From positions 3,593,052 through 3,657,051 of the forward strand of contig NZ_BAFN01000001.1 in the NCBI RefSeq assembly GCF_000949635.1: a stretch of 64,000 nt of DNA, given 5' to 3'. This stretch comes from Candidatus Brocadia sinica JPN1 (GTDB lineage Bacteria; Planctomycetota; Brocadiia; Brocadiales; Brocadiaceae). The notes under the pieces are model-generated. The model worked only from the letters and a program-made list of their open reading frames with translations. It was not told the origin of the DNA and ran no database searches. A program made the translations under genes and the position numbers. Shown piece by piece: positions 24,481-34,894 of the stretch (the stretch's first letter is position 1; each line of letters begins with the position of its first letter).

Positions 24481-24810
24481 TACACGTATGATGCAAAATG
24501 AAGAATTAAGTTAAAATAACAAAGCGGGAAATCTATGGCGCGAAAAAGGAAGACAGGATCAAATTCGAAATCTATCGAACAGTACGAACATAAAGACAAA
24601 CAACGGCCCAACAACCCGCCCGTGGGTTTGGTGGATGCACGCACCGATAATGGCGGGCAAAAGAAGAAAAAATACCAATACGACCCCCACCTTGACCCGC
24701 AACTGCAATGGGCAGGCAAGGCTGAACATACCAGCTTTGAAGTGCCTACCGTAAGCCTGCATGTGCACGAACGCATTGACCCGAGGCGAATAATTGAAAC
24801 CGTAAAAATG

Positions 24811-24858
24811 TCCCCCGCTGGCGGGGGTATAGGGGGTGGAGGGCGTGCAGGGGGTGGA
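24811..24858 (+). repeat. G-rich palindrome in mod, copy 1
   Basis: TCCCCCGCTGGCGGGGG followed by AGGGGGTGGA words, read in frame as S-P-A-G-G-G-I-G-G-G-G-R-A-G-G-G, just before the conserved Q-L-S-L-F segment. Confidence 0.8.
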
Positions 24859-26255
24859 CGGCAACTGAGTTTATTTGAAGAACACAAGAAACCCCTGCGG
24901 GAAGCCATTGAATTTTACAAACACAAAGAAGACTGGAGCAATCGCCTCGTAGCGGGCGATAGCCTGCTCGTAATGAACTCACTCTTAGAAAAAGAAGGCA
25001 TGGGCGGCAAGGTGCAGATGGTCTATTTCGACCCGCCTTACGGCATCAAATACGGCAGCAACTTCCAGCCCTTTGTGAACAAGCGTGATGTGAAAGACGG
25101 CAAGGACGAAGACCTGACTGCCGAACCAGAAATGATTAAGGCATTTCGTGATACCTGGGAATTGGGCATACACAGCTACCTCACCTATTTGCGTGACCGT
25201 TTGCTTTTAGCCCGCGAACTGCTGCACGAAAGCGGCAGTGTATTTTTGCAGATTGGGGATGAAAATCTTCATTTAGTTCGAAATCTTTTAGATGAGGTAT
25301 TTGGAAAAGAAAATTTAGTTAGTCAAATAACTTTAAAAAAAGCTGGTACTGCTACTACAATCTATCTTAGTAACATTTCAGATTATTTGCTTTTTTACGC
25401 AAAGGACAAAAATAGGCTTAAATACAGACAACTATTTGAGGATAAGGAAGTAGGAATAGGCGAGTCAACCGGAGGCAGATATGACCAACTTGAGTCTCCT
25501 GATGGCAAAAAAAGAAGGCCTCTATCTACCGAAGAAAGGAAAAATCCCAATTTAATTCCAAAAGGGTGGAGGCCATATAAATTAAGCAATCCATGTTCAA
25601 TGCATGATAATCCAAAGCACAGAGAAGAACCTTTAGTATTTGAAAACAAGCCATATTTTCCTCCTAAAGATAGACAGTGGTCAACAGATTTGGAAAGAAT
25701 GCGAATACTTATAGAGAGAAATAGAATTGTTTCAACAGGAAGTAATCTTGCTTATGTAATGTATTTAGATGATTACCCTGTTATGCCAATAAATAATATT
25801 TGGACTGATGTATTGATGAGAAATGAAAAAACATATGTTGTTGAAACAAGTCCAAAATCTATAGAACGCTGTCTCCTTATGACCACAGACCCGGTGACCT
25901 TGTTTTGGACATCACCTGTGGTAGCGGTACAACAGCATTCGTGGCCGAAGATTGGGGTAGACGATGGATCACCTGTGATACCTCAAGGGTTGCCATCACC
26001 CTTGCCAAACAACGCTTAATGACGGCAAGTTTTGATTACTACGAACTGGCCCATCCGAATGAAGGCGTGGGAAGCGGCTTCAAATACAAGACCGTTCCGC
26101 ATATTACCTTGAAAAGCATAGCCAACAACGAGCCACATGCACAGGAAACCTTATATGACCAGCCGTTTATTGATAGCAAACGATTACGGGTAACTGGACC
26201 CTTCACAGTTGAGGCAGTTCCTGCGCCGGTTGCAAAATCGTTCGAAGAATTCGAG

Positions 26256-26344
26256 TCCTCCCCCCACCCCCTCCAAAGGGGGACAAATCTTCCGCCAGCG
26301 GGGGATACCAATGTCCCCCTCACGGAGGGGGATTCAGGGGGAGG
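26256..26344 (-). repeat. G-rich palindromes in mod, inverted cluster
   Basis: Three units lie together: CACCCCCTCCAAAGGGGGA, CCGCCAGCGGGGG, and CCCCCTCACGGAGGGGG followed by AGGGGGAGGA. The first is in the opposite orientation to copies 1 and 3. They are read in frame as part of the second Mod fragment (P-H-P-L-Q-R-G and D-S-G-G-G). Confidence 0.75.
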
Positions 26345-26519
26345 ACTTGCTGCCGATACATCCATTGCCCGCAGCGGCGAAACCCTGCGCCAAAGCAATT
26401 GGCGTGACGAACTGCTTCGTGCAGGCGTAAGGGCCAAAGGTGGCAAGCTGATTGAATTTACAAGAGTAGAACCACTCAGCGGTACACGGTATTTACAGGC
26501 AGAGGCAGAAACGAAACTG

Positions 26520-26579
26520 TCCCCCTCTGGAGGGGGTGAGGGGGAGGAATTACCCTCTGGAGGGGGTAAGGGGGAGGAA
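26520..26579 (+). repeat. G-rich palindromes in mod, tandem pair
   Basis: Two head-to-tail copies of CCCTCTGGAGGGGG plus a GGGGGAGGA tail, giving L-S-P-S-G-G-G-E-G-E-E and L-P-S-G-G-G-K-G-E-E in the protein. Confidence 0.85.
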
Positions 26580-26910
26580 CCAAAACGGGTATTAGTCTGC
26601 TTTGGCCCCGAGCATGCACCATTGGAGCAACGCATGGTGGAACTGGCATTGGAAGAAGCCATGCACCTGAAACCCAAGCCACATATCGTCTTATTCTGTG
26701 CCTTTCAGTTTGACGAAGAAGCCGCAAAAGACATTGACGAAACAAACTGGCCCGGAGTTACCTTGCTCAAAGCCCAAATGAACGCCGATATGCTTACCGA
26801 CGACCTAAAAAAGAAACGCAGCAGCAACGAAAGTTTCTGGCTCATCGGTCAGCCAGATGTGATACTCCGCAAAGTGTCCCCCTCTGTTGTAAACAAAAAG
26901 AAGGAACTGT

Positions 26911-26938
26911 CCCCCTCTGGAGGGGGCAAGGGGAAGGA
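26911..26938 (+). repeat. G-rich palindrome in mod, last copy
   Basis: TCCCCCTCTGGAGGGGG then CAAGGGGAAGG, in frame as L-S-P-S-G-G-G-K-G-K-E. A broken half copy (TCCCCCTCTG) lies 33 bases upstream at 26878-26887. Confidence 0.8.
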
Positions 26939-27360
26939 ACTCTACCAGGTCGAAGTTCATGGCTTCGATTACTACAACCCCAAAACCGGAACCGTTGAAA
27001 GCGGCGGCAAGGGCGACATTGCCATGTGGATGCTCGATACCGATTACGATGGGCGCAGTTTGTTCCCTTCGCAGGTATTCTTCCCTATGGCGGGAGACAA
27101 AGAAGGTTGGGCAACCTTAGCCAAAAACCTGAAGGCAGAGATTGATAAAGAAAAAATAGAAACGTTCAGAGGAACCGTATCTTTGCCTTTTACCCCAGGC
27201 AAGGCAGTGGCAGTAAAGATTATTGATGCAAGGGGAATTGAGAGTCTGAAGATTATGCGTCTATGATGTCCTTCGCTGACAGAGGTTTCATGAAGTGGCG
27301 GAAGTGGTATCACTCCGCAGGCGGTAAATGCCAATTTCCCTTATAGTGTGAGGACTTGTA

Positions 27361-27394: not shown

Positions 27395-27829
27395 ATGAAA
27401 ACCGACGAAACCAACAATTACGCTTACAACAAAAAGCTGCAACCTTTTGCAAACAGATTACGCAAAGAAATGACGAAGGCTGAGGCATGTTTATGGAAAT
27501 ATGTATTAAGAGCAAGGCAAATGAAAGGGTATCAATTCAGAAGACAAAGACCCGTTTTAAGCTACATCGCTGATTTTATGTGCAAAGAATTGAAACTGGT
27601 AATCGAAGTGGATGGATCAACGCATCAATGGGAAGAAAAGGCTATAAAAGATTTGAAGAAGGAAAGAGATCTGATAGATGCAGGATTTAAGGTGTTACGG
27701 TTTAAAGACGAAGAAGTATTAAGGCACATTGAGGGCGTGAGAGAAAGCATTGCACTATTTGTTCAGGAAATAGAGCAATCCACCCCCTTACTCCCCCGCC
27801 AGCGGGGGACAGCCAGGCAAGAACCATGA
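27395..27829 (+). CDS. DUF559 Vsr-like endonuclease domain protein, copy 1
   Basis: The 144-residue protein belongs to DUF559, a PD-(D/E)xK nuclease family related to Vsr. Key parts: F-A-N-R-L-R-K-E-M-T-K-A-E at the start, Y-Q-F-R-R-Q-R-P-V, Y-I-A-D-F-M with the aspartate, and L-V-I-E-V-D-G-S-T-H with the acidic E-V-D pair. The frame continues upstream to 27356 through the palindrome, but ATG 27395 with its palindrome-borne ribosome site is the proper start, as in the second copy. The last 15 residues are encoded by an inverted palindrome. Its stop overlaps the start of the truncated res copy. Confidence 0.85.
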   Translation: MKTDETNNYAYNKKLQPFANRLRKEMTKAEACLWKYVLRARQMKGYQFRRQRPVLSYIADFMCKELKLVIEVDGSTHQWEEKAIKDLKKERDLIDAGFKVLRFKDEEVLRHIEGVRESIALFVQEIEQSTPLLPRQRGTARQEP

Positions 27830-28050
27830 AAAAGATTGACAAGCTCATTATCAATTCCCCTTACGAAGAACCACAGCAGTGCGGTAAGGTTGGGTTAATC
27901 ACAACGGACCCAACACATATTTTTATTATGATGGAAAAGGGCGAATGGAATACAGAAGGGCTGGGGAGAGAGGGGTTAAGTCAGTATCATTTTTCTTATG
28001 AAACGAATAGACATAAAAGAATTTTTACGGAGCTTTACAGTTCGACCTAA
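27826..28050 (+). pseudogene. 5' stub of a res gene
   Basis: Begins M-K-K-I-D-K-L-I-I-N-S-P-Y-E-E-P, the same N terminus as the full res gene at 32057, then departs after codon 18 into unrelated sequence. The junction (27885-27917) carries a GGTTGGGTT ... GACCCAACA inverted repeat. The rest of the frame is a chance extension into the Argonaute gene. This stub marks the left breakpoint of the inserted DNA. Confidence 0.7.
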
Positions 28051-31000
28051 TGGTGCGCTGAATGTTTTCCTGGGTGCGGGTGCCTCTGTTCAAGCTGGCA
28101 TTCCGACAGCAGGGATGCTGATTTGGCAATTCAAAAGGATGCTTTATTGCCAGGCCAATAATATCAAAGAAGAAAAATTCAAGGACTTAGAATCAGAGAG
28201 AAATCAAAACACCATTCAAAGCTACTTCGATCTTAAAGGAGGGTATCCAGAACGATATTCGCAAGAAGAATATTCAGCCTATTTTGAACATTGCTTTCCA
28301 AAATCGATAAATAGAAAATACTTTATGCAAAAAATAGTTGAAGGCCGTAACCCATCCATTGGACACAAGTGTCTTGGGGCATTGTTTGACTGCAAAAAAG
28401 TTAATCATATATGGACAACGAACTTTGACGAACTCATTGAGAATGGAATCAAATCCGTAAATAATGCTTCTTCATTTGAGGTCATATCAATTGACAATCA
28501 ACGTCAACTTGCAAACTTGAACAACTATCCGAGAGTGGTCAAACTTCATGGTGACTATAGGTATGACAAACTTCAAAATACAGTAGATGAATTACAGACC
28601 TTAGAAAAAGACTTACACAAATATTTTGCGGACGTTCAAAGTAAAACAGGACTAATAGTTATCGGATACGGCGGGAATGATCAGTCGATTATGTCTGCTT
28701 TTGAGAAAACATTAGAAGCCGACAACCCTTTTCCTTTTGGGCTTTATTGGTGCGTCAGAACGGGACAAAAAACCAACAAAAAAGTAATTGAGTTTATAGA
28801 GAAAGTCCATCAAAAGAATAAAGAGAAGTTGGCCGCTTTTATTGAGATTGACAGCTTTGACGACTTTCTTTATGAGTTGTATAAAACGAACAACTTAGCA
28901 AATGATCACATCGAAAATATTGCAAAATCACGGTTTGAAAAAAGAAAAGCTTTCACGGCACCGCAGATTGGAACTTCGTTTACACCAATTAAACTCAATG
29001 CAATAAAGGCAAAGACTTACCCGAAAAGTATTTATAGCTTCAAAACTGACCTGAAAGGTGGCAAGGATGATTGGGACAAGCTTCGTGAGATAATCAAAGA
29101 CCAGCCTGTTTCTGCCGCCTTAACAAATGAAAATACTGTAGCGTTTGCCAGTGTGAACGATATTAAAAAGTTGTTTTCACATACCTTAAAATCAGAAATC
29201 ACAACCGTTGACATTGACGATAAATTAATTTACAGGCAGGAATCCTTCTATCTGGGGATGCTTTATGACTTGATCGAACATAATCTGCTTAAGAAATTCA
29301 AACTTGAAAAAGTTCCAAATAATCGGCTTAGAAAGTATTACTCCAAGAATTACAAACTAAATACTGAAGAACTTCAGAAGTCGAAAATAAAGACCAGTTT
29401 ATCGGTTTACGAAGCATTTGAAATACAAATCGAATTTCACAATAAAGAACTTTTTTTGATTATACTTCCATCGATCCATATTGACGACAAGGCGGGGCTG
29501 AGCAGATTTGAGAAACAGGAGATTGCTAATAAGATAATTTCAAAAAGGTGGAATCGGATGGTCAATAACCAACTAAGATTTTGGCTTGGCCTTCTTAAAA
29601 ACGACAACACAAATATCGAGTTTTCGATAGATTCCTTTAAAATTGATCTGGAAGAGAAATTTTCAGGAGTAGGAAGTTTTACGTCTTCATATTACATTTT
29701 CAAAGGTGCATTCATATCGAATGAACCTAAACTAAGCTTTCATATATCCGATAGCAATTATAAAACCGTTCATCCTCTAAAAGGTCTTAAAAACTTCGGC
29801 CCACTTGATTACTCATTTGAAAGTAAGCAAACCAATCAACAAGCAATTAAACTCGGTATTATCACTCCTATTTCAGGAATGCAAAGGATTTTAAAGCATC
29901 TAAATGAATTAAACAATGAAATACGTGCAGCTACTGAGAAGGAATATTTGACTGATTATTATCCCTTTTCAAATATCTACAAAAGATATCTCGACATTCC
30001 ACAAAATAAAGACAGCAAATTTTTGGAACTTGTGAATGAGGCTGAAGTCAATAAATTAAATCATTTGGAGTTTTATGACTTTTTAAAAAGAAAGATAGAT
30101 TACTTTTACACGATACGTGGTGAGTTTGATGTGCTGGTTCTTTACTTTCCAAAGGGCTGGACAAAATTCAGAGAACTCAAAAATGATAGTGTGTATTTTG
30201 ATTTACATGATTCAATTAAATTATATTGCGCCAAAAAAAACATCAAGATCCAGTTTGTTGAGGACAAGTCCATTGACTACTTAGACCCAGCAAAAGTCAA
30301 ATGGTGGCTATCCTTAGGACTATATGTAAAAGCTAATGGGCTGCCGTGGCGAAATGTGGTTGTAAATGAGTCTACTGCTTTTGTAGGACTTGATTTTGCC
30401 GTTCAGAGAATAAATAATTCCAATAAGTATGTTTTAGGCAGTAGCCAAATATTTGATTCAAGTGGCCAAGGATTAAGATTTTTGTTGCAGCCGATTGAAC
30501 ACCCCGTTTTTATTGGTAAAAATCCGTTCATGAGCAAAGAAGATGCAAGACGGATGATACTCAAGCTTAAAGAAGCTTATTTCAGGATTGACGGAAACTC
30601 AAAACTGGAAAAGTTGGTAGTCCATAAAGTCTTGCATTATACAAACGATGAAATGACAGGCATTTCAGAGGCATTGGAAGGGATTGAAAACATTGAATTG
30701 TTACAGATTCAGAAATATTCTAAATGGAGAGCAATACGAGGAGATATCGACAGATACACAGGAAAGGTAAAGACAGATCCTCACAACTTCCCGATACAAA
30801 GAGGAACTGTCATTCAGCTTGATGATTTTAGTTTCTTGCTTTGGACACATGGTTCTGTTCAAGAGGATGATGTTGCAGGTCGTCACATGAACTATTACCA
30901 AGGCAAAAGAGGTATCCCTGCACCGTTACTCATAAGGAGATTTAGGGGTACAGACCCAATAGAAATGACAGTTCGAGATATTCTATCTTTAACTAAAATG

Positions 31001-31129
31001 AATTGGAATGGTGGCGAACTTTACAAGACCCTTCCAGTAACACTTGATTTTTCAAAGAGACTTTCGAAGTATGCTAAACAGGCGGAAACGTTGCAAGCAA
31101 TACCGTATGACTTTAGGTTCTTTATGTAA
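27998..31129 (+). CDS. SIR2-Argonaute fusion (single-chain short-pAgo-type defence protein)
   Basis: This 1043-residue protein joins two modules. Residues about 20-290 are a SIR2 domain: G-A-G-A-S at 26-30, T-T-N-F-D at 140-144, K-L-H-G-D at 182-186 (catalytic-type N142 and H185), G-Y-G-G-N-D at 223-228. Residues about 310-640 fit an APAZ-like region, and about 700-1043 are MID-PIWI: F-D-L-H-D-S-I-K, V-K-A-N-G-L-P-W-R, F-V-G-L-D at 795-799, V-V-H-K-V-L-H, L-T-K-M-N-W-N and L-P-V-T-L-D near the end. D799 is kept, but I cannot complete a catalytic D-E-D-X tetrad, so the Argonaute part is probably a guide-directed sensor. Related SIR2-APAZ/pAgo systems deplete NAD on invader recognition. The gene is intact, AT-rich, and flanked by long direct repeats. 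Confidence 0.9.
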   Translation: MKRIDIKEFLRSFTVRPNGALNVFLGAGASVQAGIPTAGMLIWQFKRMLYCQANNIKEEKFKDLESERNQNTIQSYFDLKGGYPERYSQEEYSAYFEHCFPKSINRKYFMQKIVEGRNPSIGHKCLGALFDCKKVNHIWTTNFDELIENGIKSVNNASSFEVISIDNQRQLANLNNYPRVVKLHGDYRYDKLQNTVDELQTLEKDLHKYFADVQSKTGLIVIGYGGNDQSIMSAFEKTLEADNPFPFGLYWCVRTGQKTNKKVIEFIEKVHQKNKEKLAAFIEIDSFDDFLYELYKTNNLANDHIENIAKSRFEKRKAFTAPQIGTSFTPIKLNAIKAKTYPKSIYSFKTDLKGGKDDWDKLREIIKDQPVSAALTNENTVAFASVNDIKKLFSHTLKSEITTVDIDDKLIYRQESFYLGMLYDLIEHNLLKKFKLEKVPNNRLRKYYSKNYKLNTEELQKSKIKTSLSVYEAFEIQIEFHNKELFLIILPSIHIDDKAGLSRFEKQEIANKIISKRWNRMVNNQLRFWLGLLKNDNTNIEFSIDSFKIDLEEKFSGVGSFTSSYYIFKGAFISNEPKLSFHISDSNYKTVHPLKGLKNFGPLDYSFESKQTNQQAIKLGIITPISGMQRILKHLNELNNEIRAATEKEYLTDYYPFSNIYKRYLDIPQNKDSKFLELVNEAEVNKLNHLEFYDFLKRKIDYFYTIRGEFDVLVLYFPKGWTKFRELKNDSVYFDLHDSIKLYCAKKNIKIQFVEDKSIDYLDPAKVKWWLSLGLYVKANGLPWRNVVVNESTAFVGLDFAVQRINNSNKYVLGSSQIFDSSGQGLRFLLQPIEHPVFIGKNPFMSKEDARRMILKLKEAYFRIDGNSKLEKLVVHKVLHYTNDEMTGISEALEGIENIELLQIQKYSKWRAIRGDIDRYTGKVKTDPHNFPIQRGTVIQLDDFSFLLWTHGSVQEDDVAGRHMNYYQGKRGIPAPLLIRRFRGTDPIEMTVRDILSLTKMNWNGGELYKTLPVTLDFSKRLSKYAKQAETLQAIPYDFRFFM

Positions 31130-31138
31130 TAAATACAT

Positions 31139-31246
31139 GAGAAGTGGCTGAGGAAGTCCAGAGTGGACTTGTGGATGCCTGAAGATTTAAGCCGCTATTT
31201 CCGCAAGGAGGTAGTAGAGTCGGCAGAGGTGCAATATGTGCAGTAA
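31139..31246 (+). pseudogene. C-terminal remnant of a nucleotidyltransferase-like protein
   Basis: An open frame without a start gives E-K-W-L-R-K-S-R-V-D-L-W-M-P-E-D-L-S-R-Y and then F-R-K-E-V-V-E-S-A-E-V-Q-Y-V before a stop. The D-L-W-M-P-E-D-L pattern followed by R-K-E-V-V-x-S-A resembles the end of MNT-type antitoxins. It directly follows the Argonaute gene and precedes a small antitoxin-like gene, so it is probably left from a toxin-antitoxin pair. Confidence 0.4.
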
Positions 31247-31296: not shown

Positions 31297-31476
31297 ATGA
31301 AGACAAGGACTGAATATGAAAAGATGATCATTAAGGAAGTTCGGGAAATGCCTGGCGAGGTGCTTCCACAGGTTGTGAAGATCATCCACTCGTTAAAGGA
31401 GGGTGTGCTTTCTGCGAAAGTACGCCACAAGAAGCGTGAAGCCAAAGGGAGCGGTCTCTGCGGCAGAGATAATTAA
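31297..31476 (+). CDS. Small antitoxin-like protein
   Basis: ATG 31297 follows GGAGGTGATT, an excellent ribosome site. The 59-residue product (M-K-T-R-T-E-Y-E-K-M-I-I-K-E-V then P-G-E-V-L-P-Q-V-V-K-I-I-H) resembles short helical proteins of the DUF2281 type found beside toxins. No toxin gene follows. The longer frame from 31255 is not preferred. Between it and the next palindrome (31477-31560) nothing else is seen. Confidence 0.5.
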   Translation: MKTRTEYEKMIIKEVREMPGEVLPQVVKIIHSLKEGVLSAKVRHKKREAKGSGLCGRDN

Positions 31477-31595: not shown

Positions 31596-32054
31596 ATGAA
31601 AGCAGACGAAACCAACAATTACGCCTACAATAAAAAATTACAACCTTTCGCAAACAGATTACGTAAAGAAATGACAAAGGCTGAGGCTTGTTTGTGGAAA
31701 TATGTATTAAGAGCAAGGCAAATGAAAGGGTATCAATTCAGAAGACAAAGACCCGTTTTGAACTACATCGCTGATTTTATGTGCAAAGAATTGAAACTGG
31801 TAATTGAAGTAGATGGATCAACGCATCAATGGGAAGAAACGGCTGTAAAAGATTTGAAGAAGAAAAAAGATCTGATAGAGGCAGGATTTAAGGTGTTACG
31901 GTTTACAGATGAAGAAGTATTAAGGCACATTGAAGGTGTTAGAGATAGCATTGTATTAACTATTCAGGAAATAGAAAAATCCACCCCCTTGATCCCCCGC
32001 CAGCGGGGGACAGACAAAGTACTCCCACGCCAGCGGGGAAATGTCGAGCAATAA
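31596..32054 (+). CDS. DUF559 Vsr-like endonuclease domain protein, copy 2
   Basis: A 152-residue close paralogue of the protein at 27395-27829; roughly 13 differences in the first 128 residues by eye, all outside the nuclease motifs Y-I-A-D-F-M and L-V-I-E-V-D-G. The C terminus is again encoded by inverted palindromes, one unit longer here (R-Q-R-G-T and R-Q-R-G-N). Two bases separate it from res, so it is co-transcribed with the restriction subunit. Whether it acts in restriction, repair or element mobility is unknown. Confidence 0.85.
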   Translation: MKADETNNYAYNKKLQPFANRLRKEMTKAEACLWKYVLRARQMKGYQFRRQRPVLNYIADFMCKELKLVIEVDGSTHQWEETAVKDLKKKKDLIEAGFKVLRFTDEEVLRHIEGVRDSIVLTIQEIEKSTPLIPRQRGTDKVLPRQRGNVEQ

Positions 32055-32056
32055 CC

Positions 32057-34894
32057 ATGAAAAAAATTGACAAACTCATCATCAATTCCCCTTACGAAGA
32101 ACCAAGGCAGTATTGGGAATACATACGTGATACACGGGAATTTATCTTACAGGAAGGTCGCAGACCTGCCGGGTATGTTGTGGCTTCAGAAAACTCAAAA
32201 TCATTTGATGACCCCGGGACTTTTATTGAGATTGAGTTGGTAAACACCATTCGCCCACGAATAAAAAAATGGAGAGAACAAGGCTATCCGGGTATTACCG
32301 GCATTACCAAGAGATTACTGCAACACTGGCAAGACCCAGAAGAACGCAAAGACCGCAGGTTTTTCTTTTGCCAGTTAGAGGCCATTGAGACCTTGATTTG
32401 GCTTACCGAAGCTCCAGAGGCCGACCGCATAGGAATTGACATCCCAAGCGATGGTGGAGATTTTTCACGATGGTGCAGCAAAATGGCAACGGGTTCGGGC
32501 AAGACCATTGTTATGGGTATGCTTATCGCATGGCAAGTCTTGAATAAAGTAGCCAACAGTAGAGATACACGATTCTCCAAAAATATTCTGGTGGTTGCGC
32601 CTGGCTTGACGGTTCGTAACCGATTATTGGTGTTGAATCCCTTCGACAAAGAGAACTACTATGAAGAATTTAACATCGTTCCATCGGGTTTGATGGAATC
32701 ACTTCGACAGGGGAAGGTAAAGATCATCAACTGGCACGCCCTCGCCTGGGACAGTGCAGAAAGACTGGCAAAGAAGAAGACCGTCGACAAACGGGGCGTA
32801 AAAAGTGATGAGGCTTATGTGCGTGAAGTGTTGGGCGATATGGCAAATGCAACAAATCTTGTCGTTATCAACGATGAAGCCCATCATGCCTGGCGTATTC
32901 CGGCGGAGAGTAAAATAAAAGGCGTAAAGAAGGAAGACATTGAAGAAAGCACCGTTTGGATCGGCGGACTGGACAGGATTCACAGGGCAAGGGGAATCAT
33001 TCAATGTTTTGACTTATCGGCCACGCCATTTGCCCCATCAGGCAAAAAAGCAACTGAAGAGGCATTGTTTCCATGGATTGTCAGCGATTTCGGGTTGAAT
33101 GATGCGATTGAGTCAGGATTGGTAAAAACGCCGAGGGTTGTAATCCGTGATGATGTCAATGTAGATGCTAACCTACGTTCACGGCTGTATCATATTTACA
33201 TGGATGCCACTGTGAAAGATGACATCAACCGCAAGGCAGAAGAAGGCGAACCACTTCCTGACCTCATCAAAAATGCCTATCTGCTTTTAGGTAAGGACTG
33301 GAAGGCCGCTAAAGACGATTGGGAAAAGATGGGATATAAAATTCCGCCCGTGATGATAACCGTAGCAAACACCACATACACATCAGCCCGCATCAAATAT
33401 GCCTTTGACCACGATGCATTTTTACTATCCGTTGCCGGATTGGGTGATTTATGCGATCAGGAGAAAACATTGCAGATTGACAGCAGGATTCTTGATAAAG
33501 CAGAGGCCGAAACAGAGGAAGTAGATATTGAAGCTGAAGAATCAGAAGAAAATGATGATAATCAAACCAAAGAAAAGAAGCCGACCAAAAAACAACAGGC
33601 GGAATTATTAAGAAGGACTGTTGATACCGTTGGCAAGATTGGAGAACCTGGTGAACAAAAGCAAAATGTGATTTCCGTAGGTATGCTCAGCGAAGGTTGG
33701 GATGCTAAAACAGTTACTCACATTATGGGCTTACGGGCATTTAGCAGCCAGTTATTGTGTGAGCAGGTCGTTGGCCGTGGTCTTAGAAGAACAAGCTATG
33801 ATGTGAAATCACAAATAGACCCTGTTACAGGTGAAAAAATTGAATTATTTGAACCTGAATATGTAAATATCTTTGGCGTTCCGTTTACATTCCTGCCTCA
33901 CGAAGGCGGAAGTGATGGCCCACCGCCCCCACCACCTCCACCCAAAACCAGGATAGAGCCAGTTAAAGAAAAAGCGGAACACAAAATTTCATTTCCTAAC
34001 ATTCTGAGGATCGACCATATTTACAAGCCACAACTATCCATAAACCTGGAAAGAGTCAAACCGCTTGAACTTGACCCATTTGAATCAATAACAGAAGCAG
34101 AACTGGCCGCCATCATAGCAGGCAAACCAAATCCTGCGGCTCTTACTGAAATTGATTTAAAAGAAATCGGCGAAAAACTTCGTTTACAGTCTATTATTTT
34201 TAGAATTGCTTCCACGATTTACAACACCGAAAAGAAACCAGACTGGAAAGGAAGCAAGGAAACATTTCTCATACAGCTTATTGGTATCATTGAACAATTC
34301 ATCTGCTCTGATAAAATTCAGATAAAAAATCCATTGTTCAATCAGGATGAAGTAAGAAAGAGAATCCTGATTATGCTGAATATGAACAAAGTCATCCAGC
34401 ATATCTGGAATGAAATACGGGCAGAGAATACGACACAACTCACCCCGATATTTGACAAGGAACATCCCATACGTTCGACTGCTGATGTGCGCACATGGTG
34501 GACAAGCAAGCCATGTGAGGACTTCAAAAAAACACATATCAACTTTACTGTTGTTGACAGCAAAATGGAATTCCTTGAGGCAAGAACCATTAACGATTGC
34601 GAGTTTGTAGAATCATTCGTGAAGAACGACCATTTAGGGTTCGTTATTCTGTACAACTACCAGGGAGTTATCAGAAGATATTTTCCAGACTTTATTATCA
34701 AATTGAAAGGTGGAGAACATCTCATTCTTGAAGCCAAGGGACAGGATAGTGAACAGAATAAAACCAAGAGGGCATTTTTAGATGAGTGGTGCAGGGCAGT
34801 GAACCATCATGGTGGTTTTGGCAAATGGATTGGGGCAGTATCATTTGACCCAAATGACCTTAATAAGATCATGGAAGATGCTGCAAGTAAATGA
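32057..34894 (+). CDS. res: Type III restriction enzyme Res subunit
   Basis: The 945-residue protein is a superfamily 2 translocase with a C-terminal nuclease. Motif I M-A-T-G-S-G-K-T is at 143-150, motif II N-D-E-A-H-H around 272-277, motif III D-L-S-A-T-P-F, and motif VI E-Q-V-V-G-R-G-L-R-R after G-W-D-A-K. The endonuclease core is D878 in P-D-F-I-I-K and E892-A-K894 in L-E-A-K-G. All motifs look intact, but the partner mod gene at 24535 is frameshifted, so the system may be inactive unless mod is restored. ATG 32057 is two bases after DUF559 copy 2. Confidence 0.93.
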   Translation: MKKIDKLIINSPYEEPRQYWEYIRDTREFILQEGRRPAGYVVASENSKSFDDPGTFIEIELVNTIRPRIKKWREQGYPGITGITKRLLQHWQDPEERKDRRFFFCQLEAIETLIWLTEAPEADRIGIDIPSDGGDFSRWCSKMATGSGKTIVMGMLIAWQVLNKVANSRDTRFSKNILVVAPGLTVRNRLLVLNPFDKENYYEEFNIVPSGLMESLRQGKVKIINWHALAWDSAERLAKKKTVDKRGVKSDEAYVREVLGDMANATNLVVINDEAHHAWRIPAESKIKGVKKEDIEESTVWIGGLDRIHRARGIIQCFDLSATPFAPSGKKATEEALFPWIVSDFGLNDAIESGLVKTPRVVIRDDVNVDANLRSRLYHIYMDATVKDDINRKAEEGEPLPDLIKNAYLLLGKDWKAAKDDWEKMGYKIPPVMITVANTTYTSARIKYAFDHDAFLLSVAGLGDLCDQEKTLQIDSRILDKAEAETEEVDIEAEESEENDDNQTKEKKPTKKQQAELLRRTVDTVGKIGEPGEQKQNVISVGMLSEGWDAKTVTHIMGLRAFSSQLLCEQVVGRGLRRTSYDVKSQIDPVTGEKIELFEPEYVNIFGVPFTFLPHEGGSDGPPPPPPPPKTRIEPVKEKAEHKISFPNILRIDHIYKPQLSINLERVKPLELDPFESITEAELAAIIAGKPNPAALTEIDLKEIGEKLRLQSIIFRIASTIYNTEKKPDWKGSKETFLIQLIGIIEQFICSDKIQIKNPLFNQDEVRKRILIMLNMNKVIQHIWNEIRAENTTQLTPIFDKEHPIRSTADVRTWWTSKPCEDFKKTHINFTVVDSKMEFLEARTINDCEFVESFVKNDHLGFVILYNYQGVIRRYFPDFIIKLKGGEHLILEAKGQDSEQNKTKRAFLDEWCRAVNHHGGFGKWIGAVSFDPNDLNKIMEDAASK

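Follow-up and report, generated by a model that had tools for sequence, protein, structure and literature searches.

A single-chain SIR2-Argonaute of SPARSA type between the mod and res genes of a planctomycete restriction-modification operon

The gene at positions 27998..31129 (forward strand) of the window, as we call the whole 64,000-nucleotide stretch of DNA analyzed here, very likely encodes a single-chain SPARSA of subclade S1A that is of Bacteroidota-like origin, resides as a passenger in an exchangeable defence slot, and would act through guide-triggered loss of NAD+. The protein has the domain order and fold of SPARSA, a conserved catalytic dyad and guide 5' pocket, a position within the clade and a foreign affinity, and the flanks of its gene recur in related genomes around different cargo. 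The known SPARSA/S1A defence family thereby gains a member in an anammox-type planctomycete. Its site is of greater interest than the protein itself, as mod and res genes parted by changing defence genes offer a simple place to seek new systems.

Domain organization and overall structure

The reading frame starts with an ATG and encodes 1043 residues followed by a stop codon, as initially described. SIR2_2 (residues 137–257) is its sole Pfam match. The full-length SIR2 and Argonaute model of PADLOC, PDLC02420, covers residues 1–1043 with 1588 bits, far above chance; the pAgo_I models of PADLOC cover residues 572–1043, and its SIR2-PNTD models also match. A phmmer search of the PDB matched the pAgo of Geobacter sulfurreducens SPARSA (GsSPARSA, 8in8_C) to residues 586–1043 (E = 5e-63) and its Sir2 chain (8jkz_A) to residues 21–409 (E = 7e-52), which bears out the suggested kinship to SIR2-APAZ/pAgo systems.

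An AlphaFold2 model was computed from an alignment of 16 fused relatives (A2), with a pLDDT of 80.5 and a pTM of 0.69; the pLDDT falls below 50 across most of residues 185–199, directly after the catalytic histidine. The SIR2 NADase-like domain (approximately residues 1–310; 27998..28927) is delimited by the Pfam match, the alignment to GsSir2 and the invariant columns. It is followed by an APAZ (N-L1-L2-like) region (approximately residues 318–561; 28949..29680), supported by the SIR2-PNTD models and by the fold, residues 4–561 superposing on the SPARSA SIR2-APAZ chain 8y80_E with a Z-score of 30.8 (rmsd 4.4, 523 residues aligned). The remainder (residues 565–1043; 29690..31126) is a MID-PIWI half without PAZ, matching the SPARSA pAgo 8jkz_B with a Z-score of 40.3 (rmsd 2.2, 460 of 469 residues aligned). 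Structure prediction and HMM searches, which the preliminary description had proposed as checks, thus place SIR2, APAZ, MID and PIWI in one chain, as it had supposed. Since both SPARSA subunits are matched in turn along the chain, it corresponds to the two subunits end to end, joined near residue 563 in the model. By sequence and predicted structure, we assign the protein to clade S1A as a SPARSA in single-chain form.

Putative functional sites

The NAD-site motifs noted at the outset are present, GAGAS at residues 26–30, TTNFD at 140–144, and KLHGD at 182–186. The catalytic pair had been given as N142 and H185. The asparagine (codon 28421..28423) stands, whereas the histidine is H184 (codon 28547..28549), residue 185 being a glycine. 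N142 and H184 align with N142 and H186 of GsSir2; mutations have established that GsSPARSA requires both of the latter for its activity as a NADase (PMC10781750). Among the fused relatives with a residue at these positions, the asparagine is found in 45 of 45 and the histidine in 47 of 47, and all 32 split relatives have both.

In the MID-PIWI half, H737, K741 and Q752 correspond by alignment to H166, K170 and Q181 of GsAgo, which form the pocket for the guide 5'-phosphate. They are invariant in the 48 fused rows of our alignment (the window protein counted twice) and in the 32 split rows; mutation of K170 lowers the NADase activity of GsSPARSA (PMC10781750). The residues E755, Y761 and K766 are aligned with N184, R190 and N195, with which GsAgo reads the guide 5'-AUA. 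Glutamate and tyrosine are common family-wide at the 755 and 761 columns, making GsAgo the exception at those two positions. The window protein may accordingly differ from GsAgo in its preference for the guide 5' end.

No complete catalytic tetrad had been recognized in PIWI, with D799 singled out as a retained residue. D799 is indeed present in the column that likely corresponds to the first aspartate, but only the window protein and its two closest relatives (L054 and L055) have it, and nearly all others have glycine or serine. We therefore rejected this residue, private to three sequences, as a catalytic remnant. The H-K-V stretch at residues 876–878 offers no acid where active Argonautes carry an aspartate; both this stretch and the column of D799 were located by motif and not by superposition on an active Argonaute.

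Relatives and probable origin

A search of genome contigs with the single sequence alone found no relative. The MID-PIWI alignment (A1) was used next to search species genomes, and it yielded 80 loci. Relatives above approximately 39% identity are nearly all encoded by one ORF, while those below approximately 36% are nearly all encoded by two genes. The tree holds 47 fused proteins besides that of the window. The phage records contained only partial, SIR2-side relatives, and the plasmids contained split SPARSA. A further candidate, on contig C223 of G008, was rejected as a relative; judged from its ORFs, it encodes a short pAgo next to a TIR-like protein.

The window protein is sister to two Bacteroidota sequences with an SH-aLRT support of 100. 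One of them (L054) is 77% identical in MID-PIWI and broken into two ORFs; the other (L055) is 72% identical and intact. The host is a planctomycete, as had been supposed, of the same order as Ca. Scalindua rubra, and the other planctomycete copies sit further off in the tree than the Bacteroidota pair. This combination indicates horizontal transfer, and the gene was probably acquired from a Bacteroidota-like source. SIR2-pAgo-like loci occur in four genomes of the order (G000, G056, G059, and G061), two of them between mod and res genes. That of G056 (L049:6023-8121) encodes a 553-residue SIR2-APAZ protein and then the end of PIWI, MID being lost from this pAgo by an internal deletion.

The restriction-modification operon

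The gene lies within a type III-like restriction-modification (RM) operon, whose order is mod (in two frames), DUF559, the start of res, pAgo, the 3' remnant of a nucleotidyltransferase, a short antitoxin-like ORF, a second DUF559, a complete res, and queA on the opposite strand; all other features are on the forward strand. The 5' ORF of mod (24535..26019), a type III-like N6/N4 methyltransferase encoded by one ORF in relatives, overlaps a 3' ORF in a different frame (25905..27266). The first DUF559 (Vsr-like) copy (27395..27829), which has a palindrome at each end (27364 and 27793), runs into 55 bp left over from the 5' end of res (27826..27880). The next segment (27881..27973) is shared with two genomes of the same genus, G009 and G006, and the divergence that follows sets the left edge of the pAgo cargo. 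The right edge lies just before the remnant of an MNT-type nucleotidyltransferase (31162..31246) that is complete in G009. The antitoxin-like ORF (MKTRTEYEKMIIKEVREMPGEV..., 31297..31476) belongs to the right flank common to G009 and G006, while the second DUF559 copy (31596..32054) is not at this side in either genome. The res gene (32057..34894) is intact and encodes a restriction endonuclease of the BPTD_3080 family, which scores 1084 bits with NF046055 over residues 5–941 (cut-off 800). The pAgo gene had been described as splitting a DUF559-res junction; it does lie between mod-DUF559 and res, with the DUF559-res start duplicated around it so that a DUF559 copy flanks it on either side.

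The mod frame is broken near 25889 by a one-base difference in a run of C (GACCCGG in the window, GACCCCGG in L044), and mod is a single ORF in G009 and G010. The break reflects either an error in sequencing or assembly at this point or a true inactivation, in which case the host RM system may no longer work. Together with the duplicated DUF559, the truncated nucleotidyltransferase and the upstream reduction of a res copy to its 5' end, it could be taken to mean that the locus is decaying and that the pAgo gene is a recent, unexpressed arrival. Broken copies in relatives (the MID deletion of G056 and the two ORFs of L054) fit this reading. No clear ribosome-binding site was found on inspection of the 24 bp before the pAgo ATG, and promoter-like matches barely exceed those in shuffled sequence. 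However, the pAgo frame is open over its 1043 codons and keeps every family-invariant residue, the downstream res is intact, and the mod frameshift amounts to a single base in a short homopolymer. We consider decay unlikely as an account of the locus.

A 16-bp palindrome, CCCCC-KCYRGM-GGGGG, occurs at 24812, 26521, 26911, 27364, 27793, 31564 and 31994 of the window. The 4.08-Mb genome has 24 such sites, of which this 7-kb locus holds 7; the reversed control gives 0. Both DUF559 copies have a palindrome at either end, and several palindromes are inside open frames (mod, DUF559 tails), resembling protein-coding palindromic elements. DUF559-like sequence is also found in frame within the mod ORFs of two genomes of the genus, G007 (C26:9938-10255, 1302 aa) and G008 (C58:63662-63973, 1280 aa), which suggests that DUF559 moves as a unit. 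In three other loci (L042:8130-8522, L044:6485-6853, and L047:6949-7335), mod contains an ORF resembling a four-helix bundle (MTTVKSYRDLIVWQKS...) in another frame, through which the mod frame stays open.

The mod-res junction as a proposed cargo slot

The sequences of G009 and G006 align with the window through the 3' part of mod, DUF559, the res remnant and approximately 90 more bases to 27973, diverge across the stretch taken up by pAgo, and resume their alignment at approximately 31159 (G009) or 31282 (G006). Their cargo consists of the antitoxin-like ORF that the window also has, together with MNT genes and genes without known function. At the same queA-linked site, G001 carries MNT-HepT plus IetA/IetS. 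The gene had been thought to replace nothing; it stands where these sister genomes carry other cargo, and the nucleotidyltransferase has been cut to its 3' end. The res-queA side is conserved in G000, G001 and G009, and is the sole internal comparison for the variability of the slot.

Across Brocadiales, 18 collinear mod-res pairs could be measured, a descriptive count without matched control junctions. At least one gene lies between mod and res in 17 of them, the exception being 45 bp on contig C58 of G008. The contents include SIR2-pAgo (G000 and G061), IetAS (G001), AbiU/AIPR (G002), HEC-01 AAA with DUF4276 (G004), KilA-N PDC-S22 (G010), YhcG PDC-S02 (G053), Schlafen-HATPase (G007), MNT-HepT (G043 and G005), DUF559 (G046), uncharacterized genes with MNT (G006 and G009), and IS200-type transposases (G021, G026, and the second operons of G000 and G007). 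A defence gene named by PADLOC is absent from 11 of the 18, which hold MNT-HepT, DUF559, Schlafen-like genes, IS200-type transposases or uncharacterized genes, or are empty. Elsewhere in the phylum, the operons of G233, G319 and G388 are empty by their coordinates (gaps of 24–57 bp), and cargo of 4–5.5 kb is found in G205 (PDC-M68 HNH and DUF2326 with a Schlafen protein) and G121 (a PD-T4-6-like kinase with a type IIG enzyme). One and two genes separate mod and res in Thermus and Planktothrix, respectively.

The tree places the Scalindua SIR2-pAgo pair well apart from the window protein, so the two slot SIR2-pAgos apparently arrived independently. We lean slightly toward regarding the mod-res junction of BPTD_3080 operons in Planctomycetota as a dedicated, reused defence dock, where common flanks permit swaps and SIR2-pAgo has docked at least twice independently. 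Cargo would probably be exchanged by homologous recombination in the flanks. In the open-access papers searched, neither defence genes lying between mod and res nor anammox Argonautes were described.

The shared position could also mean that pAgo works together with the type III-like RM system as a single composite defence, with the Argonaute fed or held back by restriction fragments or by the modification status. It is in line with this that the distant second SIR2-APAZ/pAgo of Ca. Scalindua rubra (L048, the same locus as L102) sits at the same mod-res junction, where the ATG of its SIR2-APAZ gene shares one base with the stop codon that ends the mod 3' ORF, and that a fused pAgo of Eubacteriales (L075) follows a res-like gene by approximately 50 bp. 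However, many unrelated systems occupy the same junction in relatives, and the mod of the window is frameshifted. Moreover, neither of the two nearest relatives, L054 and L055, has a mod or res match within approximately 9 kb, and nothing indicates that pAgo needs the RM proteins. A partnership therefore seems improbable, even more so than decay.

Slot genes of 344, 234/236, 221 and 153 residues, at L043:5064-6880 and in the G006 gap (L161), have no Pfam or PADLOC match (the 153-residue gene was searched against Pfam only) and are candidates for new defence genes.

Proposed function and implications

In SPARSA, guide-directed recognition leads to the loss of NAD+ (PMC10474274, PMC10781750), and the window protein is likened to it by homology. 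We infer that its MID-PIWI half would bind a 5'-phosphorylated guide, RNA by analogy, without cutting. Pairing with invader DNA would cause a change, relayed via APAZ, that opens the SIR2 pocket of N142 and H184. NAD+ would then be destroyed, leading to cell death or growth arrest ahead of any spread of the phage or plasmid. The gene, probably acquired horizontally and lodged between mod and res, would thus encode an autonomous passenger in a slot favouring defence genes, and not a subunit of the RM enzyme.

If the junction is a dedicated docking site, the RM operon would be a carrier that gathers abortive-infection cargo. The slot makes it possible to ask whether recombination within the conserved flanks swaps the cargo, and whether the cargo profits from the RM promoter. 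Genes without assigned function in G006, G009, G175 and G096 are candidate new systems.

Comparison with known systems

The single-chain architecture, regarded as unusual in the preliminary description, is already known. A 2018 catalogue lists, within one branch, 106 short pAgos fused to APAZ, of which 102 carry SIR2 (PMC6299218), and SIR2-APAZ-pAgo fusions define subclade S1A (PMC12205087); the full-length PADLOC model and the fused proteins of our tree agree with this. The window protein shares with the S1A fusions the domain order, the single chain, the SIR2 effector and the absence of PAZ, and no difference in architecture was found; what sets it apart is its anammox-type host and its location inside an RM operon. 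GsSPARSA (PDB 8jkz, 8in8, 8y80; PMC10781750), both subunits of which match nearly full length, has the Asn-His dyad and the phosphate pocket in common with the window protein, but is encoded by two genes and differs in the AUA-reading residues. The mod and res genes have homologs (NF046055) in BPTD_3080-type operons on proteobacterial plasmids; in four alphaproteobacterial plasmids they abut without cargo, approximately 5 bp apart or overlapping, where the window operon carries pAgo.

The Ca. Scalindua rubra genes (MAYW01000027) occupy the same slot in the same kind of RM operon, in a host of the same taxonomic order, and their products are 36–41% identical to the window protein. They form two frames parted by one in-frame TAA, followed by a GAGG-spaced GTG restart (L048:7960-8120). 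With the window gene fused and its Scalindua counterpart interrupted by just one stop codon at an equivalent place in the operon, the two invite a natural comparison. The Scalindua pair falls in a mainly fused region of the tree, as do two other split loci (L057 and L077), whose splits are at different places and are possibly frameshifts. Such interspersed split rows might suggest that the window fusion was newly made from a split operon, independently of the known S1A fusions, but the window protein is nested among fused rows, with its two nearest relatives and most others carrying the fusion, which makes this origin very hard to credit.
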